Of a DNA stretch of 64,000 nucleotides, positions 2,408 to 63,284 are shown in pieces (the stretch's first letter is position 1; each line of letters begins with the position of its first letter). Made by a program: the position numbers and the translations under genes. The notes beneath the pieces were generated by a model that saw only the letters and a list, made by a program, of their open reading frames with translations, was not told where the DNA came from and did no database searches. The DNA comes from Azorinus chamasolen (Eukaryota > Mollusca > Bivalvia > Cardiida > Solecurtidae): contig OY755237.1 in assembly GCA_963576725.1 (NCBI GenBank), positions 59,883,873 to 59,947,872 of the forward strand, read 5' to 3'.

Positions 2408-2408
<1 letters not shown>

Positions 2409-2447
<39 letters not shown>

Positions 2448-17680: not shown

Positions 17681-17834
17681 GGGAATACCAATGACCTGGC
17701 GATAAACAGAATTAAATCATGCAACATCTCGCGGCCAATGTACCATGTCACGCAAATTCACGTTTGCAAATACCTCTAGTTGTATGAACGGTTCAGGAAA
17801 TATAAGCATATTATTAGGATTAGGATCAAATATG

Positions 17835-32735: not shown

Positions 32736-32779
32736 TGAAAAAAGTCTAGGGGGATGCTACGGTAACCATGACTAGGATC

Positions 32780-33115: not shown

Positions 33116-33639
33116 AACAAAGGAAAGGGAATAAATGAAAAAGAAGTAAAGACAAGCAGGCAAAGACGCAACCACCACCAAAGCATCGATAGATAGCATG
33201 ACACACACACGCACGCAAGCACGCACGCACACACACATACACGAGATGAACACAGAAAACACCAACAAGACACACAAGGACTAGAGATTAACGTTTCACA
33301 CATAGACAAAAGCACAAGTACAAAGACAGAAGACAAACAAAAGCAAGGGTTACAAAGAGAGTACCGCCTTGGCACGGTCAGTAGCAAAAACACCACTGGG
33401 GGTTTAAACCGGTTTACGGACGTCCTAAACTCACGCTTCTCTCAAAGTCACCGTATCTTTACAAAAAGTAAAAATAAAGGTATCTCCGCCGGATTTACCC
33501 ACAACATAGAAGACGGTTAACATATGACAATATGTAAAACATAGCATAATAACTTGAAAATCCGTCAAATATGTACTCAATGACTTGGCTGAAGTCAGAG
33601 CACCTGCAAGGAGGCCGTTAAGGGCACGACAGGGAAAGA

Positions 33640-33707
33640 TAATACATGAGTCTGGTAAGCTCCTCCCACAGTTTAAGAGTTTAAGAGTATACCATCATAG
33701 AGTACTA
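33640..33707 (-). promoter_or_regulatory. SECIS-like hairpin in Naiad copy
   Basis: On the - strand: UAG at 33707-33705 within UAGUAC, AUGA 33698-33695, UGGUAUACUCUU, AAA, then a short duplicated CUCUUAAA, the returning GGAGGAGCUUACCA, GA, and GUAUUA (33645-33640). Only the apical loop is lengthened. Confidence 0.6.
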
Positions 33708-34904: not shown

Positions 34905-35130
34905 GTTTTATTATTATCAGTGTTGTTATATGTTCTGGTCCTTCAGGATCATTAGTGTTTGATGTTATTAGTTTTGAAAATTGAATACTGCTTAAGCCGG
35001 TGCTAGGGGGCGTGTGTAGTGTTGCACTTTTAATTACTACTCATGAACAGACTCCATAAAACCGAATCTGCAATTTTCTCGTTGTGCACTTCTACTTTTG
35101 CTTTCGAAGGATCACCCATTTTCAGAATTT
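34905..35130 (+). repeat. R1 repeat inserted in Naiad RT
   Basis: ATTATCAGTGTTGTTATATG to CACCCATTTTCAGAATTT, in the opposite orientation to the host Naiad copy, which is continuous on both sides. Confidence 0.75.
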
Positions 35131-35437
35131 ATGTTAGGACCAGACTTAAACGTATTGCAAATTTTTACATGTTTCGAGACTATATCTTTTTCAGGTGTTT
35201 GAACTATAACATAAGTTTGTGAACAAGTTAGCTCCTTCTTTATAACATTAACATTTTACACTCGTCAAATAATGATTACTATATTTGAAGCCTTGTCAGT
35301 AGGAGCAAGAACATTATTTGAATGAAAATTAGAAAAGTTTTTCTTTAAATAGCGAAATGTAACTCTGGGTCGAGGTGGTAAAAACTGGTACATGTAATTT
35401 GATTTGTAAAAGGAAATACGCGTATAAATAATATCAA

Positions 35438-37702: not shown

Positions 37703-38832
37703 GAAGGCCATTCCTATAACCCTCCTCCGCTATGCGGTGGGGGAAAACAATCTTGGTAGAAAACTATTAGATAGCGCTACACACCAAATATTAAAGGTCT
37801 CTGCCTTACAGTTTTGGAGAAGAAGATTCTTAAAGCTTTTCATATGAAAATCTGATAAGCCCCAGGGCGGGGCCATTTTTGACCCAGGGGTAATAATTTG
37901 AATAATATTGGTAGAAAACCATTAGATGATGCTACATACCAAATATCAAGGGCCTAGACCTTACAGTTGTGGAGGAGAAGATTTTTAAAGATTTTCCTAT
38001 GAAAAACTGATAAGCCTTTGGGCGGGGCCATTTTGGTCCGCGGGTCATATTTTGATTAATCTTAGTAGAGGACCATTAAATAATGCTGCATACAAAATAT
38101 CAAAGGTCTGTACCTTATAATTTTAGAGAAGAATATATTTAAAGATTTTCCTATGAAAAACTGATAAGCCCCGGGGCGGGGCCATATTTGGCCCAGGGGT
38201 CATAATTTGAACAATCTTAGTAGAGGACCATTAGATCATGCTACATACCAAATACCAAAGGTCTATTCCTTACATTTTCAGAGAAGAAGATTTTTAAAGA
38301 TTTTCCTATGAAAAACTGATAAGCCACGGGGCGGGGTCATATTTGGCCCAGGGGTCATAATTTGAACAATCTTAGTAGAGGACCATTAGAGCAGGCTACA
38401 TACCAAATATCAAAGGTCTATGCCTTACAGTTTCAGAGAAGATGATTTTTAAAGATTTTCCTATGAAAAACTGATAAGCCCTGGGGCGGGGCCATTTTTG
38501 GCCCAGGGGTCATAATTTGAACAATCTTAGTAGAGAACCATTAGATAATGCTACATACTAAATACCAAAGGTTTATGCCTGACAGTTTCAGAGAAGAAGA
38601 TTTTTAAATATTTTCCTATGACAAACTGATAAGCCCCGGGGCGGGGCCATTTTTGGCCCAGGGGTCATAATTTGAACAATCTTAGTAGAAATCGTTGACG
38701 CCTGCACGTACGCACGACGCACAACGCACATACGCACATACGCACATACGCACGACGCACGACGACGGACGCCGGGCATAGGATCATCCCAATAGCTCAC
38801 CTTGGCACTTTGTGCCAGGTGAGCCAAAAATA
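35438..38832 (+). mobile_element. Tandem-repeat non-autonomous element (Helentron-associated/pearl-like), inserted in Naiad
   Basis: Ends: GGACCATGATGGCCCTTAAT-CGATCACC on the left, and on the right AGCTCACC, TTGGCACTTTGTGCCAGGTG (a hairpin), then AGCCAAAAATA. The element at 49856-52768 has the same ends. The body is a ~150-bp unit (AATCTTAGTAGAGGACCATT, CTACATACCAAATA, AGAAGATTTTTAAAGATTTT, ACTGATAAGCCCCGGGGCGG), two units before and five to six after a nested element. A CGCACGACGCACA microsatellite precedes the right hairpin. A short tandem core, adjoining microsatellite and terminal hairpin are the bivalve pearl/DTC84 plan, thought to be Helentron-related. The Naiad frame resumes on both sides (about KKYIF | DIIYTRI), so the site is exact to a few bases. 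Confidence 0.65.
35831..37750 (+). mobile_element. Second tandem-repeat element nested in the first
   Basis: Left end near AAGGCAGTCCAAAGGACAGC and CTCCACCGCC; right end CCTCCTCCGCTATGCGGTGG. About ten units of ~165 bp carry CAAATGTGACCTTGACCTTG, AGCCGACATGACTG, TTCTGCACATCGTCTCAA, AAGTTTTATGAAAATCCTTC and GATATGGAGCGGACACG. The last unit runs into an ACAGACGG/ACAG microsatellite (37618-37701). Frames such as the 82-codon one at 36146-36394 merely repeat the unit. Confidence 0.65.
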
Positions 38833-39097
38833 TATTTCTTCTAATCCGAAAGGTCATTAACATCAACGTGTTCTCGTCGACACCATTTGATGCAGAATTC
38901 GTGAATAGCTTCCGAAATATGAGTTCGACGAGCGTCAAAATCAAAAAGGGAATGTAATCTATATTTAGGTCCTTAAGTTAGGAGAGTCCTGAGACGTTTA
39001 TATTTAATAAGGTCAAAATTACCTGTAATCACGTGACCAACTGGTTTATAGCAAAAGCTAGAAATGCTACAATCTCAAGAAGTTGGTTGGGGTATTG

Positions 39098-41350
39098 ACA
39101 TACTAGAGAAATATAAACTCCATAAGTTGTAGACTGGGGAACATCTCCATCGAGAGAAGGATAATTAACAATTTTGAAATCGAAATAGTCCTTTTATCGT
39201 ATATTATAGACGAAACTTCCATCTTCCCCTATTGTATGTCTTTGTGCGTCTCTTGATGTTTTTATAGTTATGTACATTTGCTGTTTCGTTGTGTTGCTGT
39301 TCGGGCGACTGTTTGTTCTGTATGTGGTGTTTCCTGCATGACTCATTTTTGTACTTTTATCATCAGTGATGGAAATATTGAAATCTAAAAACGTAGCCTT
39401 AATGTCGGATCGATTCGCTTTGTTTAAAGTAAGTTCTTTTGGGTAAATAGAAGAAACCATAATTTCAAAATAAGGATTATTCAAATTCAAATTATCGTCT
39501 AAATACCTAGACGTTTTATTAAAAGCATTAACTATGTCAAATTGTGTATTAGGTTGTTAGCTAAGCATGAAATCCCTCTCATAGCAATACAAAAACAAAT
39601 CTGCAATAAGAGGGGATCAATTTATTCCCATTGGCATCAACAACTTGACGACATATGGTATCACCATAGCGCACAAATGTTATCTAAAAGAAATGTTAAA
39701 GACCTACAAACATCTAGGTCCACATTGTGTATTATTTTAACTTCTGAATCGAAAGGAATGAACGTTGAACATTACAAGCAGGGAACCTTTTATTCTCTCT
39801 GGCAAAGGTTTAAAATGAGTAAATGTTGTACTGTTCATTTTTAAGTTTAGTTAAAATATCAATTGAATTCTTTATGGACCAAAAAACATTAATACCAGAA
39901 TTATCATATATTTTATAACAGTAACGTTTAACATGTTCTTTGATAGTAGGACACGACGTTAAAAGTTTAGATAGTTTAGTAGTAGAACAACAACTAGAGT
40001 TAGCAATAAAAAGCGCATTGAACGGATTTTTATGTAGCTTAGGAATCCAGTACATAGTAGAAAGGTTATGCTGTTTTACGCTAGGACTAGATTTAAACGT
40101 ATTGCACATTTTTACATGTTCCGAGACTATATCTTTTTCAGGGGTTTGCACTGTAACATATGTTTGTAACCCAGTCAATTCCTCCTTCAAAACATCAACA
40201 TAATACAATCTTCACATAATTATTACAGTAGTTGATGCCTTGTCAGCAGGAGCAAGAACATAATTAGAATGAAAATTCGAAATGTTTTTCTAAAGATATC
40301 GAGATGTAACTCTAGGTCGAGGTTGTAATAGAGTTGTAAAAAGCAATACGTGTATCAATAATATCAAAAACAATCAGAAAGGGCATTTACATCAGCATGT
40401 TCTCGTCGATACCATTTGATGAAGAAAACTTAAGTAGCTTCAGGAATATGTGTACGACAAGTGTCAAAATCAATAAGGGAAGGTCTATATTTGGGTCCAT
40501 TAGTTAGGAGGATCCTGAGATGTTTAATCTTTATTAATACAATTACCAGTACTGACATGACCAACTGGTTTATAACAAAAGATTGACGTGCTACAGTCTC
40601 AAGAAATAGGGGTATTAACATCAATACAAAATGTATTTCAGTCAGATACAATTTTATTGTAGTTACAAATTTTTGTTTATTGTATTTATTACAGATGATA
40701 GGTGATTGAGAATTTATGAAATGTTTAGGAATAGTATTGATTACATTTTTATCACGAAATATACTTTGAATATGAATACAATCGATGCCATTAGTTATGA
40801 ATTGAAGTTTAGGAAAATGTCTTAAATGTTCAGATTCTTTATTAATATGAGGACGAAGAACATGCTGTATGTAACTTTGTTTAATTGAGACAGTTTTGAT
40901 CAGCGGGTCTGTACGCATAAACCTTTTATCAGAAAATTGCAAAGATGATAAACATGAAAGCATAGCATGTTTGCCAGTTTCTACAAGAAAAGTATGTTAA
41001 TAATTAACAGACATATTAAGACGTAATTTGCGCTTAATATTACAATTTCTACGTTTACCATGTGATTTGATTTTACGTTTTCTAATTGAAAATATTGAGA
41101 ACATATCGATGCTAGGATCTTTAGTTATATTACCACTTTTGTAAATGTTGTTATTCAAGCCCAAAGGGAAAGGTGTTTTTTAATCCTGTCTAGCTCTGTG
41201 ATAAACGAACTGCTGGTAGTATTAGAATCGCAATATGGTTGAACCGAAACATGTTGAAATGAATGTCATGTATAACGAAAATGCTGGTAAAGATTTTTTT
41301 TAAACGAAAGTGGTAATTATGTTCTCGAAAGTCCATTTGGTGTAATATTT
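39098..41350 (-). pseudogene. Naiad copy (subfamily A relative), nuclease C-terminus to RT, 3'-truncated
   Basis: Reading on the - strand from about 41350: FREHNYHF (GIY-YIG end), PFPLGLNNNIYKSGN, SRKRKIKSHGKRRN, then MLSCLSSLQFSDKRFMRTDP to AIPKHFINSQSPIICNKYNK (40963-40690). The linker with UGA at 40599-40601 (ISUDCSTSIFCYKPVGH in the element frame) and RLYYVDVLKEELTGLQTY preceded by UGA at 40212-40214 follow. Then LSTMYWIPKLHKNPF, damaged RT motifs, YLDDNLNLNNPYFEIM, and an end in GDVPQSTTYGVYIS at 39098. Both UGAs match the intact copy. Frameshifts are frequent. A subfamily B tail end is inserted at 39215-39360. Confidence 0.75.
39215..39360 (+). mobile_element. Naiad subfamily B tail end inserted in Naiad RT
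   Basis: TTCCATCTTCCCCTATTGTA through GCATGACTCATTTTTGTACT. RT coding resumes on both sides (IYDKR... / ...SITDD), so it is a clean insertion of the last ~145 bp of a tail. Confidence 0.7.
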
Positions 41351-42149: not shown

Positions 42150-42205
42150 TTGACTTGATTAGATTAGTAAATTTATATTTAGTTATATCATGAGGAAGGG
42201 TTGTG
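42150..42205 (-). pseudogene. Short Naiad RT fragment after a tail end
   Basis: YTTLPHDITKYKFTNLI on the - strand matches the segment after RT motif A (YTTLPHHLIKDRLIKLI). It starts directly after the 3' terminus of the tail at 42206, another tail-to-internal junction in the same orientation. Confidence 0.65.
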
Positions 42206-42286
42206 TACAAATGGAAAAGTAGTAAAGTCAAGCAGGCAAAGCCACATGCAAGACGCAACCACCACCAAAACACCGATAGACAGCAT

Positions 42287-42321
<35 letters not shown>

Positions 42322-42705
42322 CCACACACCCAAACGCACACACACACACACACACGAAATGAACACAGAAAACACCAAAAGACACACAAGAACCAGGGAC
42401 AAACGTTCCACAACATGAACAAACCACAAGCACAAAGACGCAAGGCAAACAAAAGGAAGGGTGACAAAGAGAGTACCGCCTTGGCACGGTCAGCAGCAAA
42501 AACACCACTGGGGTTTAAACCGGTTTACGGACGTCCTAACCTCACACTTCTCTCAAAGTCACCCTAGCTTTACAAATATTGTAAATAAAGGTATCCCCGC
42601 TGGACTTACCCACAACATAGACGACGGTGAACACAGGACAACATGTAAAACATAGCATAATAACTGTGACAATCCGTCAAATATGTACTCAATGACTTTG
42701 CTGAA
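42206..42705 (-). mobile_element. Naiad subfamily A tail
   Basis: Tail end complement GGAAAAGTAGTAAAGTCAAG, a GT tract (42290-42352 on the + strand as CA), TACCGCCTTGGCACGGT, GGTTTAAACCGGTTTAC, CCCGCTGGACTTACCCACAA, to TTTGCTGAAGTCAGG. Its 5' part, including the SECIS, is missing; it is fused to the RT piece at 42706. Confidence 0.8.
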
Positions 42706-43420
42706 GTCAGGAAAACCTTAAGTGTTTACAAGGATGAAAGGAACCTTTTGTTCTCATGTTTTTAATAGGACAGAAGATATTTATTCCAGAACTTTCATAA
42801 GTCTTATCACAATAGAATTTAACATGTTCCTTTATCTTCGTTAAACTAGACGTCAAAAGTATATACAATTTTGTAGTTGAACAAGAGGAATTTGCAATGA
42901 AATGCGCTTGATATGGTTTGTTATGCAGTCTTTGGCAACTAATACATTGTGGGAAGTTCATGTTGTATAATTATAATATCTGCTTCAAGTTGTTCACACT
43001 TTTTGACATGTTCTGAAACGACGGGCTTTTCGTCTTCATTCTCAGTGTTGTTATATTTTCTGGTCCTTCGGGATCATTAGTTTTGATGTTATTAGTTTTG
43101 AAAATTGAATACTGTGTTGCAATTTTAATTACTACTCATGAACACACTCAATAGAACCGAGTCTGCAGTTTTTTCATTTGCATTTCTGCGTTTGCTTTCG
43201 AAGGATCACCCATTTTCAGAGTACTGGTATTAATAATTTCCTCCTTCAAGACATCGATATAATGTAATCGTCTAATAATGATGACATTATTCGATGCTTT
43301 TTCAGAAGGAACAAAGATGTATTTTAAATAGAAATCCTGCAAACTCTTTTTAAGATGTCCAAACGAAGGTGTTCATTTGAGCTATGAAATGATATGCGTT
43401 TCTCAACTATATAAAAAATC
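42706..43420 (-). pseudogene. Naiad RT fingers fragment with R1 insertion
   Basis: Reading on the - strand: RLDILKKSLQDFYLKYIFVP, EKASNNVIII-R-RLHYIDVL, where AGA stands at the UGA site of other copies, and EEIINT. R1 sits at 43036-43220. After it come CISCQRLHNKPY, AHFIANSSCSTTKLYILLTS and KIKEHVKFYCDKTYESSGIN, up to CPIKN, fused to a tail at 42705. It is inverted relative to the adjoining copy that starts at about 43421. Confidence 0.75.
43036..43220 (+). repeat. R1 repeat with internal deletion
   Basis: CATTCTCAGTGTTGTTATAT to CACCCATTTTCAGAG, lacking the TTAAGCCGGTGCTAGG block. Confidence 0.75.
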
Positions 43421-45178
43421 CAATTTGAAGGAGCATTTGACTCTTGCTGTACCGCTACTCAAATATCTAAACTTTTGACGTCCTGTCTTACTACGATCAA
43501 ATAACATGTAAAACGTTACTGTGATAAAATATATGAAAATTCTGGTATTAATGTTTTTTGGTCCATAAAAATTCATGTTGAATTAAAATTATGTTTTAAC
43601 AAAACTTGAAAATGAACAGTATAACATTTCTTCACTGAGCTCTTATGATTGATTTCTCTACACTCTATACTACTCTGCCTCACCATCTTATAAAGGATAA
43701 ACTGATTAAATTAATAGAAAAAAAACCTTTGCCAGAGAAAACAAAATGTTCATTGCTTGTAATGTTCAACGTAAATTCTTTTTGAATTCAGAAGTTGAAC
43801 ATTACACAATGTGGATTTGCCTTGATGTTTGTAGATCTCTTACCTTTCTTTTAGATAATACATTTGTGCGTTATGGGGTTACCATATATCGTCAAGATGC
43901 TGGTATACCCATGGGTACAAATTGTGCCCCTCTTGTTGCAGATTTGTTTTTGTATTGCTATGAGAGGGATTTTATGCTTAGCTTAAAACCTGATTCACAT
44001 ACCGATATTGTTATTGCTTTTAATAAAACTTCAAGGTATTTAGACGATATTTTGAATTTAGATAATCCTTATTTTGAAACTGTGATTTCTTCAATTTATC
44101 CAAAAGAACTGTCTTTAAACAAAGCGAATCAATCTGACATTATAGCTTCATTTTTAGATTTGAATCTTTCAATTACAAATGATAAAGTTTTGTCCAAAAT
44201 ATACGATAAAAGAGACGATTTTAATTTTAAAATTATTAATTATCCTTTTCTAGACTGAGATGTGCCCCGTTCTACATCTTATGGGGTTTATATTTCTCAA
44301 CTTATTCGGTTTGCCCGAGCCTACTATTTGCTTGAAGACTTTAACAATCGTAAATTAGTTATAACTGATAAACTTCTTAAGCAAGGTTACAGATATCACA
44401 AACTTTGGAAAACGTTTTCTAAATTTTATTATCAAAATTTACCAATCATTAGTAAATATAATTGCAATCTACGGACGTTACTGCAACAAGGTAGTTTTAA
44501 CCTGACTTTTTATGGGGATGTTATTTACAAACTTAGGAAAATTCGGGGTCATATCCATTTTCATGATTAGTTTATAAAACGCATTCAAATATTTAAGAAG
44601 AAAGGTTATGATCCCATTGTATTGCAAAGCGCTGCATGTTTGGTTATCGACCCTTTTACAGTCGGTAGCTACGCTTCCCTCTTTGCTTGTACGATGACAG
44701 ACCGAGGGTAGTACTCTATGGTGGTATACTCTTAAACTCAGATACGGTATGAGCTTACCAGACTCGTGTATTACGTTTTCCCTGTCGTGCCCTTAACTGC
44801 TTCGCTGCAGGTGCTCTGACTTCAGCAAAGTCATTGAGTACATATTTGAGCTAGTTTTACTTTGAGAGAAGTGTGAGGTTAGGACGTCCGTACACCGGTT
44901 TAAACCCCCAGTGGTGTTTTTACTACTGACCGTGCCAAGGCGGTACTCTCTTTGTCACCCTTCCTATTGTCTGTCTTGTGTCTTTGTGCTTGTGATTTTG
45001 TTCCTGTGTGAAGTGTTTGTCTCTAGTTATTGTGTGTATTGTTGGTGTTTTCTATGTTCATCTCGTGTGTGAGTGTGCGTTTGGGTGTGTGGTTGTGTGT
45101 GTGTGATGCTATCTATCGGTGTTTTGGTGGTGGTTGCGTCTTGTATGTGGCTTTGCCTGCTTGACTTAACTACTTTTC
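43421..45178 (+). pseudogene. Naiad RT copy (subfamily A), 5'-truncated, with tail
   Basis: From about LLKYLNF(LLTSCLTTIK) through YCDKIYENSGINVFW, motif A region FSTLYTTLPHHLIKDKLIKL, GIPMGTNCAPLVADLFLYCY and SRYLDDILNLDNPYF, to AACLVIDPFTVGSYASLFAC. Damage includes 4-base and 2-base shifts (43648, 43725), a TGA at 44257-44259 where Gly stands elsewhere, and a TAG at 44568-44570. The tail follows to 45178, where a - strand Naiad copy starts with no spacer. It is very close in sequence to the 61.3-62.6 kb copy. Confidence 0.8.
44709..44773 (+). promoter_or_regulatory. SECIS-like hairpin, core damaged
   Basis: Same fold as at 62571-62635 but with AUGG for AUGA (44718-44721) and changes in the apical part (CUCAGAUACGGUAUGAGC). 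The copy is a pseudogene, so loss of the core is as expected. Confidence 0.55.
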
Positions 45179-46440
45179 CATCAACATGTTCTCTTCGACA
45201 CCATTTATTACTAAAATTTGTAAAGCCTCAGCAATCTGACCTCGACTAGAGTTAAAATCTACCAATGATGGTATTCTGTATTTGGGACCTTTATTAAGAA
45301 GATATCGTAGATGTTTATCTTTAATTGTCTCGAAGTTACCAATTGTCACATGACCAGCCGGAGAATAGCAAAAGTTTGAGGTAAGTGACGCACTCTCAAT
45401 TAGCAGGAATATTATCATTAATACTAAGGTCGGCAACAATTTTATTATAGTTGAAAATTGTATTTCTGGTGGGTTCATTATATGTTTAGCAGATAATAGA
45501 TGGTTCTGTATTTAGGAAAAGTGTATACATTTTGTCCCTGAATATAGTTTGGAGGTCAATAAGATCAATACATTTATTAATAAAAAATCTTAAGTGTTCA
45601 GATAATTTGTCAATGTGTGGTCTGGGAACATGTAGAGAAACGCTTTGTATCAAACTAGCCGTTCCCATGACAGGATCTGATTTAAATGATTTTATCGGCT
45701 TGCTCGTCAATTTTAATGACGATATTGATAAGGAAGAAAGTCTAGAAAGCATGGCATGTTAACCAGAATGTTAGATGTAAAGTATGTAGATCAAGAATAG
45801 TCATCTTTTTTCGAGATCTTCGTTTAATATTACCATTGTACGATTCCATGTGATCGAGATTTGCGTGTCAGAACATTATACGGCTGAAGTGACCTTGACT
45901 TTAGATTGACTGACCTCACACTCAATAGAGATCATCTACTGACCATGACCAACCTCCCTACGAAATATGAAGACGGCACACCCAATAGTTATTAAGTTAT
46001 TGAGCGGACAATATTTTTGAGTTGAAAGTCACTGAATCAATAGAGATCATCTACTGACCATGAGCAATATCTCTACTAAGCAGGAAGACAGCACACCTAA
46101 TAATTATCAAGTTATTGAGCGGACAATAGTTTTGAGTTGAACGTCACTGTGACCTTGACCGTTGACCGACTGACCACAAACTAAATAGGGACCATCTACT
46201 GACCATGACCTACTTCCCTATCATGTATGACGACTATACACCTAATAGTTGTCAAGGTATTAAGCAGACAAAGGTGTGACTAACGGACAGACAGACAGAC
46301 GGACGGACGGACGAGCGCCATATCATAATAATATGAAGGTATAAAATTGAAAAATGTCTATATCAGGATCTTTTGAAATAATTACAGTCTGTTAAATATT
46401 ATCATTTAGCTCTAAAGCAAACAGTGTTTGCAAGCAGGAC
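45179..46440 (-). pseudogene. Naiad copy, nuclease end to linker, inverted against its neighbour
   Basis: Reading on the - strand from about 46440: ELNDNI...SKDPDIDIF (after the GIY-YIG domain), then a tandem-repeat insertion (45885-46330). Next are MLSRLSSLSISSLKLTSKPI, TEPSIIC, and IPAN-UGA-ECV (UGA 45396-45398). After a +1 shift come NFCYSPAGHVTIGNFE and KGPKYRIPSLVDFNSS. It ends at 45179. The UxC linker site is conserved although the subfamily differs (Ala-Asn before, Glu after). Confidence 0.75.
45885..46330 (+). repeat. Tandem-repeat element remnant with ACAGACGG microsatellite
   Basis: Three units of ~130 bp (CATCTACTGACCATGACC, AAGTTATTGAGCGGACAATA, GTGACCTTGAC), ending in GACAGACAGACAGACGGACG and GAGCGCCATATCATAATAAT. 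The plan resembles the nested element at 35831-37750, but the unit sequence differs. Confidence 0.6.
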
Positions 46441-46479
46441 ACAAACAAGATGTAAATTTGCAAATGGCCGACCGGGAAT

Positions 46480-47899: not shown

Positions 47900-48280
47900 T
47901 TCTTCTGAGTAATCGCACAGAAGGTCATGAGAAAAGCGAAAACCTTGAAGGTATACCCCTCTTTGACAGAGCAGAGTGACTGAGCCATGGAGAATACCTT
48001 CTTCAACAAATAAGGCGCGTGTGTCACTACGTCGTTAAGCTGCCGAAACGTGAGAAAGAATATAGTTTTCCACGTCTGGGGTGTTGAGGATGCCTGATCT
48101 AAAGGCTCATAAGGACATTAATTAGGGACCACTATACCCCATACTCTCTGATGGTATTGGCTGCGAGATTCTTCTCCATAAAGATAACAACTAGCAATTG
48201 CGAGACATCCTAAATAGAGGGACGGATAGGAATACTCGTTTAAGATGACACAAATCCGCGAATACCTTCCACTTTACATT
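47900..48280 (-). pseudogene. DIRS tyrosine recombinase region, degraded
   Basis: On the - strand, NLAANTIREYGVWYSGP-like words can be read across frames (48200-48130), then LNTPDVENYILSHV and KKVFSMAQSLCSV. The L-A-x-N-T-I-x-x-Y phrase is typical of the N-terminal core-binding part of DIRS recombinases. The catalytic R...HxxR...Y set is not identifiable. Assignment rests mainly on position after RNase H. Confidence 0.4.
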
Positions 48281-48589
48281 ATATACAATGGAAGGTTTGG
48301 ATCGTCTGACCTTGGCGACCAGATTGGCAACCGCTTGAGAAAACTTTCTGTTTCAGAGGCCTACCCTGATAACGGCAGACGTGAAGGTAGAATACAGCTA
48401 GGTCTCTGAGGAGAACGCCGTCCCTCTGAGGGAGGAGATCCTGTCTGGGAAGGATCGAATAGGGCGACTCGTACAGGAGACCCAGAATAGTGTTGAACAA
48501 GGCTCTCTGGGGCCACAAAGAGGCGATCAGGAGGATCCTGTAGTTCGAGATTCATCTAGAATCAACATTAACGGGGGTAGGCAAGTACG

Positions 48590-49850
48590 TCAATCAGTCC
48601 CACGGAAACGACACAGCATATACTGCCAAGGCTGCTGTATCCATGATTTGTAACACATATAACAGCAGTCGATGGTTGAACATGGTGGCCAACAGATCTA
48701 TCATCGGATGTCCGAGACGGTAGAAGGGACTTGTGAAGAGTCCACTCCACCGGCAGAGCTTGGTGTCTGCGGAAGAGACGTCCACTAGCACGTTCCGCCT
48801 GCCAGGAAGATGCTTGACAAGCAACGTTATATAGCTGTTGTTACAGAACAGAGAAAGATCCCCATGCACCTGAAGAGGGCGTGCCCCAAACTTTTGATAT
48901 ATGAACACACTGAAGTGTTTTAGATCTCCAGTACACAGTGGTTTTGCGCATAGTTCTCGGAAGCTCGAGACTGCAGAAGCTCGAGATTATGTATATAGAG
49001 TTTGGATTCCTGAACCGACCAGAGGCATGAGGTGAATATATCCAGATGCTCCAAATGGGCTTCACAGCCCTTGATGCTGGCTTCCAAAATTAGAAACAGA
49101 TCTGGATTCTTAGGTGCGTTCAAGACTCCCCAAAGGAAGCGATCCTCCTCCTCCAACCACGCTAGAGCGGCAGGGAAGAGAAGAGGAGTGGCAGACAGGG
49201 CGTCTGTCTAAGGATGCCATTGAGTAAGCAGGTAAAACTGAAGCGAGCGTAAGTGAAGCCTATTTAGATGAACAATGTCCGCTGCCGAATCGAGGAATTC
49301 CAATAGGGACAGAAAAAGGGCTGAGCAGCACTTCTTCTTGCCGAAAAGGTATCCACGACTTGTTCTGATGAGATCTTGACCGTGTTTGAGTCCGTAAGGA
49401 AATTCAGCCCAACACAGATGACATATTTCGTCGGAAAGATATCCGATTTCTGCTGTTTAAGTACTAGTCGAGACGTCCATACTGTGACTGAGGTCAATCG
49501 TTAAAATACGGAATCAGAGTGACACCACTCTGCGGCAGATAGGCTGCTACGACTCCCTTGGGCTTGGTGAAAACACTGGGGGCCGAAAAAAGACCAAAGG
49601 GCAGAGCCCGGGACTGGTTGACAGTACCACCCGTGGCAGAAGCGCAGGAGATGTCTGCCAGGTGAACTGGAACGCGAAAAAAGGCGACCGATAGGTCTAT
49701 GGAGACACCCCCTTGACCTGGTTTGATTGCAAGCCAACTGGAATCGGGAGGGTGGGGGTTCCATTTTGAAAGGTTCGATATCTACATACTTGTTTAGAGT
49801 AGAGAGGTCAATGATAGGTCAAAAGGCGCCGTGTTTCTTTGTAACAAGAA
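48590..49850 (-). pseudogene. DIRS RT and RNase H region
   Basis: On the - strand: RT text across frames (SIDLSVAFFRVPVHLADI, LPFGLFSAPSVFTKPKG, 49700-49560), then LVLKQQKSDIFPTKYVICVG (connection) and GLNFLTDSNTVKIS. RNase H follows, ending KHLPGRRNVLVDVSSADTKL and EWTLHKSLL (48820-48720), then IDLLATMFNHRLLLYV and AVYAVSFPWD. The same sequence of blocks occurs at 25.3-26.5 kb. Frameshifts throughout; no catalytic YxDD box is legible. Confidence 0.7.
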
Positions 49851-49855
49851 AGACA

Positions 49856-52768
49856 AGAGGGCCAGAATGGCCCTGAAGCGCTCACCAGACAAGCAGAGGA
49901 GAAGATTTTCAAAGTGTTCAATATATGTTTCTATAGAAAACTAACCGGCCCTGGGGCAGGCCAGACAAACAGAGAAGAATATTTTCAAAGTTTCACTATA
50001 GGTTTCTATTGGAAATTGGCCACCACACCCATCCATGAATATTCAAGAGGTATCTGGAGGGAATGAAATCTGTAATTAACCCTTTACTCCAGTAATACAC
50101 CTTTTTTCCATTGCAAAGAGTAGACCCAGATGGGACGGATTCTATAGCAGCAATCTGATAAGAGTCTGCTCTGGTTGCCCAAGATATAATATAGATCGAA
50201 TTGTAGTGTTCACTATGGCAAACAATTACCGTAATTAATCTCTATGACATAATCAATTTTTACATGAATATTCATGGGGGAAAGGGTTATTTCAGAACAG
50301 AGAAAGGGTTAAATACCGCTAGAAGCATGACATGGTGCTAGAAGCGAAAAACTCGGTAATAATGTACGATGATATTGATAATAAACCTATGCAACTCAAA
50401 TGAACGGTCAATGAAAGAGTGGATAAAAAAAGACAAAACACACAGAAGAGGCCATAATAATGCAGAGGCATAAAGTCACACAATTCAAACTGTCTCCTAT
50501 AAGATATTACCATCCTCTGCCTGTCTCTGACAGGCCACAAGTCAAAATGAAATGTTATCCCTTTCCCTGTTCGATATTCATCCATGTTTTCATAACCTGA
50601 TGAATATTCATGAATAACATCCTTCTAATGGAGTATGGAATATGTTGGTTATTTCATAAACTATAGTGAACTAGAAATGCAAGCCAAGGGCTGGTGTATT
50701 TCAGAAGATTTTCAATTCTTTCACTAGGTCTACATGTTTTTATAGAAATCTGGCCACCCCTGGAACAGGAGCCAAGTTTAACCCCCAGTTGCATAATTTA
50801 TACACCTTTTTTGTAAAGGACATGAAGATGATATTATGTGAAATGAGAACCTTCAAATTTCAGAGTAGAACATTTACAAGGTTTTCACTATAGATCCATG
50901 TTTCCATAGAAAACTGACCATGTACCCTGCAGCGGGGCCAATCTTTACCCAAGGGGCATACTTTATAGAACTTTTGTAGAAACCCTACAGATAATGCTAT
51001 GTGGCAAATATGGAAGCTGAGAATTTTCCAGTTCCATCGAAAATTCTCAGTTGTTTCAATATATATGTTTCTATAGAAAACTGGCTACCCCTGAAGAGGA
51101 GCCATTTCTGACCCAGAGGCATTATTTATATAACTTTTGGAGATGACCTAAAATTCATGCTATATGCCTAATATCAAAGCTGAGAACCTTCCAGTTTCAG
51201 AGAAGATTTTCCAAGTTTTCACGATATATTTGTTTCTATAGAAAACTGGACACACCTGGGGGGGCTAATTTCAACACCTGCATTGTTTATACCACAGCTG
51301 AGAACCTTCCAGTTTCAAAGAAGATTTTCAAAGATTTCACTATTTGTTTCCATTGAAAACTGCCCACCCCTGGGGTAGGGTCAATTTTGACCCCAGGGCC
51401 ATAATTTATAAAAAAAATTGTAGAGGACCTTAACATGATACTCTGTGCCAAATATGAAATATGTGAGCATTCCAGTTTCAGAGAAGAAGATTTTCAAAGA
51501 TTTCACCATTTGTTTCTATTGAAAACTGCCCACCCCTGGGGCGGGGCCAATTTTGACCCCAGGGCAATAGTTTATATAACTTTTGTAGAGGACCTGAACA
51601 TGATGCTCTGTGCCAAATATGAAAGCTGAGAGCCTTCCAGTTTCAGAGGAGAAGATTTTCAAAGATTTCACTATTTGCTTCTACTGAAAACTGCCCACCC
51701 TTGGGGCGGGGCCAATTTTAACCCCAGGGCCATAATTTATATGACTTTTGTAGAGGACCTGAACATTATGCTATATGCCAAATATGAAAGCTAAGAGCTT
51801 TCCAGTTTCAGAGAAGAAGATTTTCAAAGTTTTCATTATTTGTTTCTATTGAAAACTGCCCACCCCTGGGGCGGGCCAATTTTGACCCCAGGGTCATTAT
51901 TTATATAACTTTTGTAGAGGAACTGAACATGATGCTCTGTGCCAAATATGAAAGCTGAGAACCTTCCAGTTTCAGAGAAGAAGATTTTCAAAGATTTCAC
52001 TATTGTTTTCTATTACAAACTGCCCACCCCTGGGGCGGGGCCAATTTTGACCCCAGGGTCATAATTTATATAACTTTTGTAGAGGACCTGAGCATGATGC
52101 TCTGTGCCAAATATGAAAGCTAAGAGCCTTCCAGTTTCAGAGGAGAAGATTTTCAAATTTATCACTATTTGCTTCTACTGAAAACTGCCCACCCCTGGGC
52201 GGGGCAAATTTTAACCCCAGGGCCATAATTTATATAACTTTTGTAGAGGACCTGAGCATGATGCTATATGACAAATATGAAAGCTGAGAACCTTCCAGTT
52301 TCAGAGAAGAAGATTTTCAAAGTTTTCACTATTTGTTTCTATTGAAAACTGCCCACCCCTGGGGCGGGGCCAATTTTGACCCCAGGGCCATAATTTATAT
52401 AACTTTTGTAGAGGACCCGAACATGATGCTCTGTGCCAAATATGAAAACTGAGAGCCTTCCAGATTCAGAGGAGAAGATTTTCAAAGTTTTACGATGTTT
52501 CTATTGAAAACTTCCCACCCCTGGGGTGGGGCCAATTTTGACCCCAGGGGCATAATTTATATAAATTTTGTAGAGGACCTAAGGATGATGCTATGTGCCC
52601 AAGATGAAAGCTGAGAACCCTGTATATTCAGAGGAGAAGATTTTTAAAGTTCAAATTGTTGACGACGAACGACGGACGACGCACGACGCACGCCGACGGA
52701 CGACGGACGACGGACATCAGGCGATCACAAAAGCTCACCCTGAGCACTTCGTGCTCTGGTGAGCTAAA
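49856..52768 (+). mobile_element. Tandem-repeat non-autonomous element, second copy of the 35438 family
   Basis: Left end AGGGCCAGAATGGCCCTGAA-GCGCTCACC; right end AAGCTCACC, CTGAGCACTTCGTGCTCTGG, TGAGCTAAAAATA, the same plan as 35438-38832. About ten units of ~165 bp (TTTGTAGAGGACCTGAACAT, GATGCTCTGTGCCAAATATG, TTCCAGTTTCAGAG, AACTGCCCACCCCTGGGGCG). A GACGACGGACGACGCACG microsatellite lies at about 52670-52715. Between 50080 and 50640 the array holds GCAAACAGAG-type hairpins and their AACCCTTTCCCTG flanks, plus unassigned sequence. Confidence 0.7.
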
Positions 52769-56924: not shown

Positions 56925-56956
56925 CTGCAACAAATCTAAATATGCAGTTACTTTAT

Positions 56957-56993
56957 CTTGCATGTGGCTTTGCCTGCTTGACTTTACTACTTT
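56957..56993 (+). mobile_element. Naiad subfamily A tail end upstream of the near-intact copy
   Basis: CTTGCATGTGGCTTTGCCTG-CTTGACTTTACTACTTTT is the last ~38 bp of a subfamily A tail. It is followed after a few bases by the 5' leader of the next copy, giving a head-to-tail junction. Confidence 0.7.
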
Positions 56994-56999
56994 TTCATT

Positions 57000-57421
57000 T
57001 ATAAGCACAATAGTGTTGTTTGTGCAGTGTGGCGGCGATGAAACGTCTCCCCGTACATCCAATCAATATTGTTTTCTTCCTCTTGCAGGGATTGCTCTAC
57101 ATTCAATGTGTTTCCTCATACCTTTACACCGTACTTTGCACTTCATGGTGGCTTCCGTACTCACCGACATATTGTGTGACTATTTTAATTTCCCTTTTAA
57201 GATTTGTGCCCTTTGCGTTTTCTCTAGTGTGACTTTACCTTATTTGTGTTTCTTCTTACTTTTTACCCATTCAATGTTTCACGATTCATTGTTTCATTCA
57301 TATTCTTAGTCTTCTTTATTTTTGTCATAACCTCTGGTATGTTTTATATTATTTTACACCACTTTTCGTTACATACGTATGTCGCTTTTTACAGAAGGGT
57401 GCTACAATTACTACACAAAAT
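57000..57421 (+). promoter_or_regulatory. Naiad 5' leader with splice-acceptor-like tract
   Basis: Homologous to 781-1045 on the other strand. TGTTTTCTTCCTCTTGCAG (57067-57087) is a good 3' splice site and has the counterpart TTGTTATCATTCTCTTGCAG in the other copy. Some Penelope-like elements are known to carry introns. A promoter is presumably in this leader, but I cannot mark one. Confidence 0.45.
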
Positions 57422-57451
57422 ATGAATAGTCTCCCTAAACTCAAAATTAAC

Positions 57452-59411
57452 AAGAAATGTTTGTAAAACATGTATACCCCCCAGGCCCCCTGACCTTTGA
57501 TCTAGTGACCTCAACTATAGAGGTCATCTAGCGGTCATGACTAATCACCACAGCAACTTTGAAGATCCTAAGCCAAACCACTGATCATTTATTGATCTGA
57601 AAACATTTCACATATTAAGGTCATGGTGACCTTGACCTTTGACCTAGTGACCTCAACAACTATAGGGGTCATCTATTGGTCACGACCAACTACCACAGCA
57701 AGTTTGAAGATCCCGAACCAAACCATTGAGCAGTTATTAATTGGAAACCATTTCATCAGTTAAGGTCATGATGACCTTGACCTTTGACCTAGTGACCTCA
57801 AAATTAATAGGGGTCATCTAGTAAGCCAAACCACTGATCATTTATTGATCTGAAAACATTTCACATATTAAGGTCATGGTGACCTTGACCTTTGACCTAG
57901 TGACCTCAACAACTATAGGGGTCATCTATTGGTCAAGACCAACTACCACAGCAAGTTTGAAGATCCCGAACTAAACCATTGAGCAGTTATTAATTGGAAA
58001 CCATTTCATCAGTTAAGGTCATGATGACCTTGACCTTTGACCTAGTGACCTCAAAATTAATAGGGGTCATCTAGTTGTCATGACCAACCACCACAGCAAG
58101 TTTGAAGATCCTAAGCCAAACCCTTGAGCAGTTATTGATCGCAAACCATTTCACCAGTTAAGGTCATGGTGACCTTGACCTTTGACCTAGTGACCTCAAA
58201 AATAATAGGGGTTATCTATTGGTCATGACCAACCACCACAGCAAGTTTGAAGATCCTAAGCCAAACCCTTGAGCAGTTATTGATCGCAAACCATTTCACC
58301 AGTTAAGGTCATGGTGACCTTGACCTTTGACATAGTGACCTAAAAAACAATAGGGCTCATCTAGTTGTCATGACCAACCACCTAAGCAAATTTGAAGATC
58401 CTAAGCCAAACACTTGAGCAGTTATTGATAAGAAACCATTTTACAAGTTAAGGTCATGGTGACCTTGACCTTTGACCTAGTGACCTCAAATACAATAGGG
58501 GTCATCCAGTTGTCATAACCAACTACCGCAGCAAGTTTGAAGATTCTAAGCCAAACCCTTGAGCAGTTATTGATCGGAAACCATTTGACCAGTTAAGAGC
58601 ATGGTGACCTTGACCTTTGACCTAGTGACCTAAAAAACAATAGGAGTCATCTAGTGGTCATTACCAACCACCACAGCAAATTTGAAGATCCTAGGCCAAA
58701 CCCTTGAGCAGTTATTGATCGCAAACCATTTCACCCTTTAAGGTCATGGTGACCTTGACCTTTGACCTAGTGACCTAAAAAACAATAGGACTCATCTAGT
58801 TGTCATGACCAACCACCTAAGCAAATTTGAAGATCCTAAGCCAAACCCTTGAGCAGTTATGGATCAGAAACTATTTTACCAGTTAAGGTCATGGTGACCT
58901 TGACCTTTGACCTAGTGACATCAAAATCAATAGGGGTCATCCAGTGGTCATGTCCAACTACTACAGCAAGTTTGAAGATTCTAAGCTAAACCCTTGAGCA
59001 GTTATTGATCGGAAACCATTTAACTATTTAAGGTCATGGTGACCTTGACCTTTGACCTAGTGACCTCAAAATCAATAGGGGTCATCAAATGGTCATGACC
59101 AACCACCACGGCAAGTTTGAAGATCCCAAGCCAAACCCTTGAGCAGTTATTGATGGGAAACTATTTCACCATTTTAGGTCATGGTGACCTTGACCTTTGA
59201 CCTAGTGACCTCAAAAACAATAGGGATCATCTACTTGTCATGACCAACCACCACAGCAAGTTTGAAGATTCTAGGCCAAGTCGTTTATTAGTTATCATTC
59301 GGAAACCATCGATCTACCGACCGACCGACCGACCGACCGACCGACCGACAGACCGACCGACCGACATGTGCAAAGCAATATACCCCAATTTTTTCAAAAG
59401 GGGGGTATAAT
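57452..59411 (+). mobile_element. Tandem-repeat element (about 12 units of ~145 bp) interrupting the Naiad ORF
   Basis: Starts AAGAAATGTTTGTAAAACAT, GTATACCCCCCAGG; ends CCGACCGACCGACC microsatellite (59316-59366), then GCAATATACCCC-AATTTTTTC-AAAAGGGGGGTATA, a terminal hairpin. Unit words: TAAGGTCATGGTGACCTTGA, CCTTTGACCTAGTGACCTCA, AATAGGGGTCATCTA, GACCAACCACCACAGCAAGT, TTGAGCAGTTATTGATC. The plan (tandem core, tetranucleotide tract, end hairpin) is that of bivalve Helentron-associated elements. It separates codon 10 from codon 11 of the Naiad frame. No transposition gene. Confidence 0.75.
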
Positions 59412-62400
59412 AACTTAAACTTACACTCTGTGTCTTCCGTTCAGATTCCTCATAACCTGGCTAATTTCCAATCACTACAGCCGTCAGTTTGTATTAAACC
59501 TCTAAAATTGTCTTCTGCTTCATCTTTTCATGTTCCCTCTTCGGCTATTAGTAACATTTTTCATAATGGACCTAAAATCGTTTTGTCTCCTTTAAAGCAA
59601 TCTATCATTCGTTATGGTAAAGTCCATCTAAATTCACATTATTTGAACAAAAGACATAGGGTGTATCCAATAATTACTAAGTGCAATAGTAAGAGGTGTA
59701 TGTGTTGCAATTTCATTTCTACTAGATCAACAATTAAATCTCTTGTTAATGGTAGAGTGTTTAGTGTGAAGATTAATTCTGATTTAGACTGAAACTCATC
59801 TAATATTATATATGTTCTTACATGAAATGCGCCACGTTGTGGCATTCAATATGTAGGTCAGACAGGACGTTCTTTAAAAACTAGGTTTCGTGAACACAGT
59901 TACCATTGCCGGATCAAAAAAGTACGCAATTTTCTTTACCAGCATTTTCGTCATACAGGACATTCTTTCAAATATGTTTCGGTTCAACCAGTAGAACAAA
60001 TTTATTATGATTCTAAAACTACTGGTAGTTTAAAATCTAAAGCTCGTTTTATCACAGAGCTAGACTGGATAAAGAAATTACAAACACCTTTTCCTTTAGG
60101 CCTTAATGATAACATTTTCCAAAGCGGCAACATTTCTAAAGATCCAAGTATCGATATTTTCTCTATATTTTCTATTCGAAAACGTAAAAGTAGATCACAT
60201 GGCAGACGTAGAAATGGTAATATTAAGCGTAAATTACGTCGTAATATGTCTATTCATGATTTACATACTATTCTAAAACAAACTGGTAAACATTCTATGT
60301 TATCTTGTTTATCGTCTTTACCCTTTTCTAGTCTTAAGTCAATAGACGAAGAGGCTGATAAAATCTATATGCGTATAGATCCGTTAATTAATACTGCCTC
60401 ACTTATACAAAGTTACACACAGCATGTTCTTCGTCCACGTATTGATAAAGAATCTGAACATAAAAGACATTTTCTGAAACTTCAGTTCCTAAATAAAGGT
60501 ATCGATTTTATTGATATTCAAAGTATATTTCGTGATAAGAATGTAATCGATGCTATTCCCAAATATTTCATCAACTCTGAATCACCTATCATCTGTTATA
60601 AATATAATAAACCTATTAGAAATGTTATTTTGAACTACAATAAAATTGTCTCTGACTTAAATATTGATGTTAATACCCCTGTTTCTTGAGATTGTAGCAT
60701 TTCTAGCTTTTGCTATAAACCAGTTGGTCATGTCATTACCGGTAATTTTGATATCATTAAGGATAAACGTCTCAGGACCCTCCTAACTAAAGGACCTAAA
60801 TATAGATTACCTTCCCTTATTGATTTTGACGCTTGTCGAACTCATATTGCGGAAGCTATTCAAGATTTCTGCATCAAATGGTGTCGACGAGAACATGCTG
60901 ATGTTAATGCCCTTTCGGATTGGAAGAAATGTATTTTCGATATTATTGATACACGAATAACGTTTTACAAATCAAATAACCATCTTTTACCACCTCGACA
61001 TAGAGTTACATTTCGCTACTTGAAGAAAAACATTTCTAATTTTCATTCAGATTATGTTCTTGTTCCTGCTGACAAGGCATCAAACAATGTAATCATTATT
61101 TGAAGATTGTATTATGTTGATGTTTTAAAGAAGGAGCTAACTGATTCAAAAACTTATATAACAGTTCAAACACCTGAAAAAGATATAGTCTCGGAACATG
61201 TAAAAATGTGCAATGATTTTAAGTCTGGTCCTAACATAAAACAACATAAACTTTCTACTTTGTACTGGATTCCGAAACTACATAAAAACCCTTATAAGTC
61301 GCGTTTTATTGCCAACTCTAGCTGTTGTACCACTACTAAATTATCTATACTTTTGACGTCCTGTCTTACTACGATCAAAGAACATGTTAAACGCTACTGT
61401 GATAAAATATATGAAAATTCTGGTATTAATGTTTTTTGGTCCATAAAAAATTCAAATGATGTTTTAACAAAACTTGAAAATGAACAGTATAACATTTCTT
61501 TACTGAGCTCTTATGATTTCTCTACACTCTATACTACTCTACCTCACCATCTTATAAAGGATAGACTTATTAAATTAATAGAAAAAACCTTTGCCAGAGA
61601 AAACAAAATGTTCATTGCTTGTAATGTTCAACGTTCATTCTTTTCGAATTCAGAAGTTGAACATTACACAATGTGGACTTGCCTTGATGTTTGTAGATCT
61701 CTTACCTTTCTTTTAGATAATATATTTGTGCGTTATGGAGATACCATATATCGTCAAGTTGTTGGTATACCCATGGGTACAAATTGTGCCCCTCTTGTTG
61801 CAGATTTGTTTTTGTATTGCTACGAGAGGGATTTTATGCTTAGCTTAAAACCTGATACACAGACCGATATTGTTAATGCTTTTAATAAAACTTCAAGGTA
61901 TTTAGACGATATTTTGAATTTAGATAATCCTTATTTTGATACTATGGTTTCTTCAATCTACCCAAAAGAACTGTCTTTAAACAAGGCTAATCAATCTGAC
62001 ATTAATGCTTCATTTTTAGATTTGAATCTTTCAATTACAAATGATAAAGTTTCGTCCAAAGTATACGATAAAAGAGAAGATTTTAATTTTAAAATTGTTA
62101 ATTATCCTTTTCTAGATGGGGATGTGCCACGTTCTACATCTTATGGTGTTTATATTTCTCAACTTATTAGGTTTGCCCGAGCCTGTTCTTTGCTTGAAGA
62201 TTTTAACAGACGTAATTTAGTTATAACTGATAAACTTCTTAAGCAAGGTTACAGATATCACAAACTTCGGAAAACTTTTTCTAAATTTTATTATCGAAAT
62301 TTACCTCTCATTAGTAAATATAATTGCAATCTACGGACGTTACTGCGACAAGGCATTTCTCAACCAGCATTTTATGGGGATGTTATCTACAAACTTAGGA

Positions 62401-62573
62401 AAATTCGGGGTCATATCCATTTTCATGATTTGTTTATAAAACGCATTAAAACATTTAAAAAGAAAGGTTATGATCCTATTATATTGCAACACACTGCATG
62501 TTTGGTTATCGACCCTTTTGCAGTCGGTAGCTACGCTTCCCTCTTTGCTTGCGCGATGACAGGCCGAGGGTAG
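59412..62573 (+). CDS. Naiad GIY-YIG endonuclease-reverse transcriptase with four in-frame UGA codons (putative selenoprotein)
   Basis: Codons 1-10 (MNSLPKLKIN) lie at 57422-57451; the rest runs here in one frame to UAG. Numbering the whole protein (~1063 aa): basic N-terminus with KCNSKRCMCC (about 107-116) and UGA at 137 (59790). GIY-YIG follows: IIYVLT-UGA(148, 59823)-NAPRCGIQYVGQTGR, REH, HTGHSF, then TPFPLGLND and a KRKSRSHGRRRN basic patch. The linker is PVS-UGA(436, 60687)-DC...FCYKPVGHV, the CxC site with the first Cys as UGA. Then NNVIII-UGA(574, 61101)-RLYYVDVL opens the RT. RT has YDFSTLYTTLP (Asp 712), GIPMGTNCAPLVADLF (795 on) and YLDD (840-843). There is no UAA or UAG and no frameshift in 3.16 kb. 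All four UGAs stand at Cys-type positions and three recur in other copies. Inference: UGA is selenocysteine, supported by the hairpin at 62571-62635. Confidence 0.88.
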
Positions 62574-62635
62574 TACTCTATGATGGTATACTCTTAAACT
62601 TGGATGCAGGAGGAGCTTACCAGACTCATGTATTA
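62571..62635 (+). promoter_or_regulatory. SECIS element candidate overlapping the stop codon
   Basis: Helix I pairs UAGUAC (62571-62576, including the UAG stop) with GUAUUA (62630-62635). After a UCU/CUCAU internal loop come AUGA (62580-62583) and GA (62623-62624), the non-Watson-Crick quartet site. Helix II pairs UGGUA with UACCA, then, past a small internal loop, CUCUU with AGGAG. AAA (62596-62598) opens the apical loop, 12 nt after AUGA. These are the spacing and core expected of a eukaryotic SECIS. Five copies in the window carry the fold, one with a re-paired helix. Confidence 0.75.
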
Positions 62636-62878
62636 TTTTTTCCCTGTCGTGCCCTTAACGGCTTACCTGCAGGTGCTCTGACTTCAGCAAAGTCATTGAG
62701 TACATATTTGACGGATTGTCACAGTTATTATGCTATGTTTTACATGTTGTCCTGTGTTCACCGTCATCTATGTTGTGGGTAAGTCCAGCGGGGATACCTT
62801 TATTTACAATATTTGTAAAGCTAGGGTGACTTTGAGAGAAGTGCGAGGCTAGGACGTCCGTAAACCGGTTTAAACCCC

Positions 62879-62914
62879 CAGTGGTGTTTTTGCTGCTGAC
62901 CGTGCCAAGGCGGT
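62879..62914 (+). promoter_or_regulatory. Double hairpin of Naiad tail (subfamily A form)
   Basis: Stem 1 pairs CAGUGGUG (62879-62886) with UGCUGCUG (62891-62898), half by G-U wobble. Stem 2 pairs ACCGU (62899-62903) with GCGGU (62910-62914) around GCCAAG. It directly follows the conserved TAAACCGGTTTAAACC block. Wobble pairing suggests it acts as RNA. Confidence 0.6.
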
Positions 62915-63032
62915 ACTCTCTTTGTCACCCTTCCTTTTGTTTGCCTTGCGTCTTTGTGCTTGTGGTTTGTTCATGTTGTGGAACGTTTGTCCCTGGTTCT
63001 TGTGTCTCTTTTGGTGTTTTCTGTGTTCATTT

Positions 63033-63087
63033 CGTGTGTGTCTGTGTGCGTTTGGGTGTGTGGTTGTGTGTGTGTGTGTGTGTGTCA
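63033..63087 (+). repeat. GT microsatellite in Naiad tail
   Basis: Imperfect GTGTGTCTGTGTGCGTTTGG and (GT)n. Shorter than at 2409-2485 in the homologous place. Confidence 0.9.
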
Positions 63088-63284
63088 TGCTGTCTATCGG
63101 TGTTTTGGTGGTGGTTGCGTCTTGCATGTGGCTTTGCCTGCTTGACTTTACTACTTTTCCAATGATATAGAATATGCTGTTATGGTACAGTCAAATACCA
63201 TCGAACAGTCCATAAATTCCCATAAAGTTTGTAGACATTCATTTAACCGTGAAGTGAAGGTGACGCATCTTTGGACCAAGGGAT

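Follow-up and report, generated by a model that had tools for sequence, protein, structure and literature searches.

A Naiad-type retroelement of the bivalve Azorinus chamasolen with four in-frame UGA codons that are probably read as selenocysteine

Introduction

The DNA examined here, hereafter the window, is a stretch of 64,000 nucleotides from the bivalve Azorinus chamasolen (GenBank assembly GCA_963576725.1, contig OY755237.1, positions 59,883,873 to 59,947,872), which forms part of contig C3 of 137 in a genome of 1.72 Gb. It contains a retroelement whose open reading frame (ORF) raises a direct question: when UGA is the only stop codon that occurs inside a long frame, and occurs there four times, is it a stop or a sense codon? 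A first-pass annotation, made from the letters of the window, proposed that the element belongs to the Naiads and that its four UGAs, all at cysteine-type positions, encode selenocysteine (Sec). Our analysis supports this proposal. We put at about 0.92 the probability that a single Naiad ORF is translated through four UGAs as Sec, with the host machinery recruited via a Sec insertion sequence (SECIS), because the UGAs are equivalent to cysteine (Cys) in relatives, are retained among copies and are exchanged for Cys at one site, and because SECIS matches in two families and a tRNA-Sec match in the genome accompany them.

Results

Between positions 59412 and 62573 of the forward strand, one frame contains no internal TAA or TAG, exactly four TGA codons (at 59790, 59823, 60687 and 61101, referred to below as sites 1 to 4) and a TAG at its end, and a six-frame count, in which each of the remaining five frames held 54 to 141 stops over the same interval at a GC content of 32%, bore out the initial description of the frame. 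The start that had been placed at 57422 is indeed the start codon of the ORF; the 1,957 bp at 57451-59407, which had been included in the element, are a foreign insert, and the whole element in the window consists of 56956-57450 joined to 59408-63161. The first of these segments shows 98% identity to the stretch found immediately before the rest of the ORF in three uninterrupted genomic copies (L033, L037 and L043), and in these and three further uninterrupted copies (L044, L046 and L050) the opening residues MNSLPKLKIN are followed directly by NLNLHSVSSVQIP.

One line of evidence on what UGA encodes comes from related proteins, of which 208 were found and 120 were listed and used for counts of Cys columns. 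Coverage by 20 or more of these 120 listed relatives was reached in 956 columns, of which ten are near-invariant Cys, and the ten include all four UGA sites (counts per site are given in Table 1); for four UGAs placed at random the hypergeometric P is ~6e-9. Site 1 corresponds to a near-invariant Cys ahead of the nuclease, and site 4, in the context 'NVIIIURLYYV', to one ahead of the fingers of the reverse transcriptase (RT). The Cys-type roles first assigned to the four UGAs are borne out. The residue that replaces Cys at sites 3 and 4 in some listed relatives is tryptophan (Trp), in 14 cells from ten proteins (P0002, P0004, P0005, P0006, P0007, P0012, P0013, P0026, P0091 and P0115), and no covering listed relative has Trp in the other six near-invariant Cys columns, at most two of which are covered by those ten proteins. 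These Trp residues are most simply taken as TGA translated as Trp by a gene predictor, in which case the relatives would carry UGA there too. Two of the proteins, P0006 and P0012, combine Cys at site 3 with Trp at site 4, which hints at differing sets of Sec sites.

We then consider whether the UGAs are kept among copies in the genome, using family A for the family of the 59412-62573 element and family B for a sister family. A query with the RT part (61107-62573) gave 88 listed places of 99-100% identity and free of stops, among 48,473 first-look candidates in the genome, and we read family A as a large repeat family that appears to have been active recently. The sites were counted at 30 of the 88 listed places (~99% identity, window copy included), one of which, L025, was read on an adjacent older copy and is uninformative at sites 1-4, leaving 29. 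TGA occupied every covered site, in 13/13, 13/13, 23/23 and 29/29 places for sites 1 to 4, respectively. When the genome was searched with a DNA pattern built around site 1, 858 places matched; 100 of them, all with perfect flanks, were listed and comprised 99 with TGA and 1 with TTA, and eight copies taken from this search had TGA at all covered sites, two of them with other in-frame stops. No UAA or UAG was seen at the four sites in the copies examined. Where copies had less than 97.5% identity, TGA was found in 21 of 23 site cells (8 of the 21 from two copies at 96-97% identity) and the other two were TGT, both at site 1, compared to 14.8 of 23 cells expected to be retained from the general rate of codon identity. 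In-frame stops elsewhere in these copies were mostly TAA (21 TAA, 5 TAG and 5 TGA). The tally excluded the duplicate L004 and kept the pair L007/L037, which has neither a UGA site nor a stop and leaves the counts unaffected. Counts made for matches of 97.5% identity or more were set aside, as some places entered them twice. In addition, the ORF of family A ends in TAG and that of family B in TAA, indicating that ordinary stops drift whereas the four UGA sites mostly do not.

Families A and B share 69% protein identity over amino acids (aa) 168-1050 and have UGA in common at sites 3 and 4. At site 1 they differ: L059, a family B copy taken from a tandem array with 4,483-bp spacing, reads TGT (Cys) there and keeps TGA at the other three sites, in an ORF that carries one frameshift. 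Selenoproteins are typically recognized by a position that is Sec in one relative and Cys in another, and the Cys/UGA exchange at site 1 supports the reading of UGA as Sec.

We also examined the 3' untranslated regions (UTRs) for SECIS elements. Three SECIS_1 (RF00031) matches were listed in the 64-kb window, each at a Naiad 3' end: the candidate of family A, which overlaps the stop codon, that of family B, which at 36.8 bits (16881-16819, reverse strand) exceeds the Rfam cutoff of 35, and a third at 1948-2010 (23.2 bits), in the 3' UTR of a family A copy that is truncated at its 5' end. L059 has a match of 36.3 bits at the equivalent position at its stop. An alignment of the hairpins of the two families shows full agreement in the signatures AUGA, AAA and GA and differences in the stems. 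Under the named SECIS structure 95.2% of cells were paired, compared to 42-56% in slid controls, with three pairs changed on both sides, and none of 500 shuffles reached the observed covariation score or the observed number of cells that were paired or changed on both sides. Folding z-scores of the SECIS hairpins were -2.3 (62572-62634), -3.1 and -2.8. The conserved blocks of the 3' UTR comprise the SECIS and others, and a second possible hairpin, the stem letters of which are kept in family B, gave folds that were not significant (z -0.8 and -1.5). The host genome also contains a tRNA-Sec gene match (RF01852) on contig C15, at 80.7 bits against a cutoff of 47; of the other 34 matches to this model, two scored 47.2 bits and 32 fell below the cutoff.

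Several observations weigh against a Sec reading of the UGAs. The SECIS_1 match of family A itself reaches 24.3 bits, below the Rfam cutoff of 35, and the hairpin of family B, when folded without constraint, pairs the AAA stretch, unlike the SECIS form in the Rfam alignment. The three pairs changed on both sides were matched in 75/500 shuffles and the count of pair types in 443/500, in a test of 7 rows from two families that holds few independent events and whose structure was drawn after both families had been viewed, omitting positions unpaired in either. The 30 family A copies were chosen for the similarity of their protein to the RT part, a choice that favours intact copies. Among older material, one piece found by protein-level search (43366, reverse strand) has arginine (Arg) at site 4, and AUGA is replaced by AUGG in a decayed copy at 43433-44708. 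RF01852 matches were present in 14/14 control genomes, above the cutoff in 5, and the window copy is interrupted by its insert.

To place the element, we checked it for the features described for Naiads. A GIY-YIG nuclease lies before the RT in one ORF; PF01541 was matched by 37/48 aligned members at E up to 0.01 and RVT_1 (PF00078) by 23/48, in an alignment (A2) built with 47 of the 120 listed relatives. A Pfam scan of the window protein gave no RT match, and NCBIfam gave no match to this protein. The nuclease set of the window protein is U138, C143, H178 and H184, and these columns hold C, C, H and H in 40/40, 37/39, 40/42 and 40/42 rows with a letter, respectively, with Sec scored as C in the window row; a CCHH motif in the nuclease is what separates Naiad from Chlamys. 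The linker contains U426-x-C428, both columns of which are nearly invariant Cys in the listed relatives, giving a CxC motif. Tandem copies, or a pseudo-LTR organisation, are seen in both families: four family A matches on C4 are spaced exactly 4,192 bp apart, head-to-tail, and family B matches are spaced exactly 4,483 bp apart, also head-to-tail, on C16 (G000:C16, which holds L059) and C12. The frameshift in the L059 unit suggests that the family B array may have expanded in the manner of a satellite and not through retrotransposition. No hammerhead ribozyme was matched when the window was scanned with Rfam up to E 10. Judged by these sequence features, the element is a Penelope-like retroelement of Naiad type. 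The flanks of 29 copies, inspected by eye, had no obvious microsatellite. A PDB search by sequence gave one weak match for the single protein, to alkaline phosphatase (E 0.7), which was taken as chance, and no match for the profile.

The copies also bear on how the family spreads. Truncation at the 5' end, with the copy starting inside the ORF, was seen at 12/20 places examined with long flanks, and the flanks were distinct by eye at 29 family A places; 5'-truncated copies with a fixed 3' end and distinct flanks form the pattern that would be expected of target-primed reverse transcription.

Selection on the protein was assessed from variant codons. Family A copies other than that of the window have 48 synonymous and 30 nonsynonymous variant codons, where 24% synonymous would be expected (P 4e-12), a count over the 30 places minus L025, whose choice by protein similarity inflates the signal of constraint. 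The private codon changes of the window copy comprise 9 nonsynonymous and 9 synonymous (P 0.017), and in 6/8 of the copies found by DNA pattern nonsynonymous differences from the window copy outnumber synonymous ones, as in decaying copies. Strong constraint is a property of the transposing lineage and is best seen between families A and B, which over 881 codons have 0.22 nonsynonymous substitutions per nonsynonymous site (dN) and ~2.1 synonymous substitutions per synonymous site (dS). The initial statement that this copy is retained under strong constraint consequently stands for the lineage and fails for the window copy, which is split by an insert.

This insert lies shortly downstream of the start codon, with a 3-bp duplication of TAA at 57448-57450 and 59408-59410, and as it splits the ORF, translation from the start codon of the window copy cannot yield the full protein. 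It contains about a dozen 145-bp tandem units and (ACCG)n. One end has GGGGGGTATA, and TATACCCCCC lies close to the opposite end. The insert looks like a non-autonomous DNA transposon bearing a satellite-like array. Insertion of the element into a microsatellite, with (ACCG)n and the 145-bp array as target, was considered and rejected, as both belong to the later insert.

Further Naiad pieces of the window are listed in Table 1. Several of them have a decayed frame, yet retain UGA at site 3 or 4. Two other regions, 25101-27368 and 48279-49995, contain long open stretches that appear retroelement-like by eye and are without a match to the Naiad protein.

Table 1 Features of the element and of other Naiad sequences in the window (positions are those of the window)
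Feature	Positions	Strand	Remarks
5' segment of the element	56956-57450	+	5' UTR; ATG at 57422; first codons MNSLPKLKIN
Foreign insert within the ORF	57451-59407		1,957 bp; absent from L033, L037, L043, L044, L046, L050
ORF remainder	59408-62573	+	GIY-YIG nuclease, CxC linker, RT; stop TAG at 62571-62573
GIY-YIG nuclease core	59805-59951	+	aa 132-180, N-terminal to RT; PF01541 E 0.0034, below its cutoff
UGA site 1	59790-59792	+	aa 127; Cys in 46/46 listed covering relatives; Cys (TGT) in family B
UGA site 2	59823-59825	+	aa 138, first Cys of CCHH; Cys in 47/47 listed covering relatives
UGA site 3	60687-60689	+	aa 426, first residue of CxC; Cys in 92/96, Trp in 4/96 listed covering relatives
UGA site 4	61101-61103	+	aa 564; Cys in 105/115, Trp in 10/115 listed covering relatives
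RT region (limits estimated)	61044-62186	+	YDFSTLYTTLP and RYLDD motifs
Candidate SECIS element	62572-62634	+	RF00031; AUGA at 62580, apical AAA, GA partner; overlaps stop codon
3' UTR	62574-63161	+	Copies end at 63161 or a few bases off
Second possible hairpin	62673-62703 (+); family B 16779-16753 (-)		Stem letters kept in family B, loop altered
Further Naiad copy, N-terminal part	1-834	-	Cys at site 1, UGA at site 2
Naiad piece, 5'-truncated family A copy	1932-2559		3' UTR with SECIS_1 match
Family B copy	16819-17869	-	C-terminal part of ORF 17869-16880; SECIS 16881-16819, SECIS_1 36.8 bits
Naiad piece	24711-25046		Protein-level search
Naiad piece	32775-34911	-	Protein-level search
Naiad piece	35130-35441	-	Protein-level search
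Naiad piece	38826-41330	-	Protein-level search
Naiad piece	42201-42710	-	Protein-level search
Naiad piece	42758-43366	-	Protein-level search; Arg at site 4
Naiad piece, decayed	43433-44849		Protein-level search
Naiad piece	45026-46445	-	Protein-level search

Discussion

The model that we favour is one in which a single SECIS hairpin, overlapping the stop codon at the start of the 3' UTR, would recruit the tRNA-Sec and the Sec machinery of the host, and in which Sec is most likely inserted at all four UGAs. The resulting protein would have Sec at four of ten near-invariant Cys positions: ahead of the nuclease, at the first ligand of CCHH, at the first position of CxC and ahead of the RT fingers. 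Its mode of spread would be target-primed reverse transcription, which would leave copies shortened at the 5' end, all with one fixed 3' end, as well as head-to-tail arrays. The insertion of Sec itself, the mechanism of transposition, a metal-binding or redox role of the residues and a dependence on selenium are what we infer from sequence. It is our guess that the residues may group into clusters (91/96/99/127, 138/143/178/184 and 426/428/564/639), each of which contains at least one of the four sites.

Among other explanations, the one that survives best is that truncation at UGA is itself put to use, the element making mostly a short N-terminal peptide and full-length Sec protein being rare and regulated. 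Sites 1 and 2 either precede the nuclease core or fall at its beginning, where a failure of Sec insertion would end the protein ahead of the catalytic domains. The lack of UAA and UAG at the four sites in the examined copies suggests that what matters is the identity of Sec and not mere termination, and we consider this explanation unlikely. Still less credible, in our view, is that UGA is read by ordinary readthrough or by a suppressor tRNA, as Trp or another residue, with the SECIS-like hairpin incidental. This would fit the Trp in the predicted proteins of some listed relatives at sites 3 and 4 (4 and 10 cells), the sub-threshold SECIS score of family A and the parts of the pairing control that were not exceeded, but most covering listed relatives have Cys at the sites, Trp is found in no covering listed relative at the other six near-invariant Cys columns (at most two of which are covered by the ten proteins with Trp), as predictor-read TGA would give, UGA is exchanged with TGT at site 1 between families, the SECIS of family B lies above the cutoff, and the ORF encodes Trp by TGG six times. 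That a decaying pseudogene has acquired four premature UGA stops by chance, as the insert and the 9 private nonsynonymous and 9 synonymous codon changes of the window copy might suggest, we regard as close to negligible given that UGA fills all sites covered in the 29 informative places among the 30 young ones, whose flanks look distinct, is kept in diverged paralogues, is confined to near-invariant Cys columns (P ~6e-9) and stands in a frame of >1,000 codons without TAA or TAG.

If the four UGAs do encode Sec, a successful mobile element needs a rare, costly and nutrient-dependent amino acid at four sites, which is hard to explain by drift alone. Two families that are one Sec/Cys exchange apart, each with its own SECIS, constitute a natural experiment within one genome, which allows a test of whether the nuclease or RT gains from Sec, or whether selenium supply throttles the element. 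We tentatively extend this to a broader proposal, which on balance we think improbable: that Naiads of the host lineage swap Cys for Sec site by site in putative metal-binding or redox clusters of the nuclease, linker and RT, with three- and four-Sec families coexisting in one genome. Were such site-by-site trading true, it would link retrotransposition activity to the selenium status of the host, and Sec would serve as a ligand or redox residue in the nuclease and RT. There is also a warning for annotation, as standard gene prediction would end the protein at a UGA or, to judge from some listed relatives, translate the codon as Trp.

Naiads of clams and spiders with multiple selenocysteines were reportedly described by Craig, Yushenova, Rodriguez and Arkhipova in 2021, in Mol Biol Evol. 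These Naiads are said to have a nuclease before the RT, a CxC linker, a CCHH nuclease, high copy number and tandem copies, and reportedly lack a canonical hammerhead and show a bias, not a requirement, for insertion at microsatellites. The element of the window agrees with this description in its domain order, its CxC and CCHH motifs, its abundance, its tandem copies, the lack of a hammerhead match and its multiple predicted Sec; a bias for microsatellites was not apparent by eye in the 29 copies inspected. The multi-Sec phenomenon is of a kind reportedly known already from clams and spiders. A literature search, judged by titles and abstract openings, found no paper on Sec in Naiads. Details that may be additional here are that coexisting families exchange Sec for Cys at site 1, that the SECIS overlaps the stop in both, and that a second stem is kept behind it. 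Canonical Penelope/Poseidon elements, such as PAc of Anolis, also have one ORF with RT and GIY-YIG and occur as tandem copies, with a C-terminal nuclease and a hammerhead ribozyme (PMC11167929). In contrast, the nuclease of the window element is N-terminal and no hammerhead was matched. Selenoprotein P is a host gene, not a mobile one, and has a Sec-rich tail. It carries several Sec in one ORF (PMC8230778). The protein predicted here would likewise be multi-Sec, but it belongs to a mobile element and its Sec residues would be scattered over the nuclease and RT.

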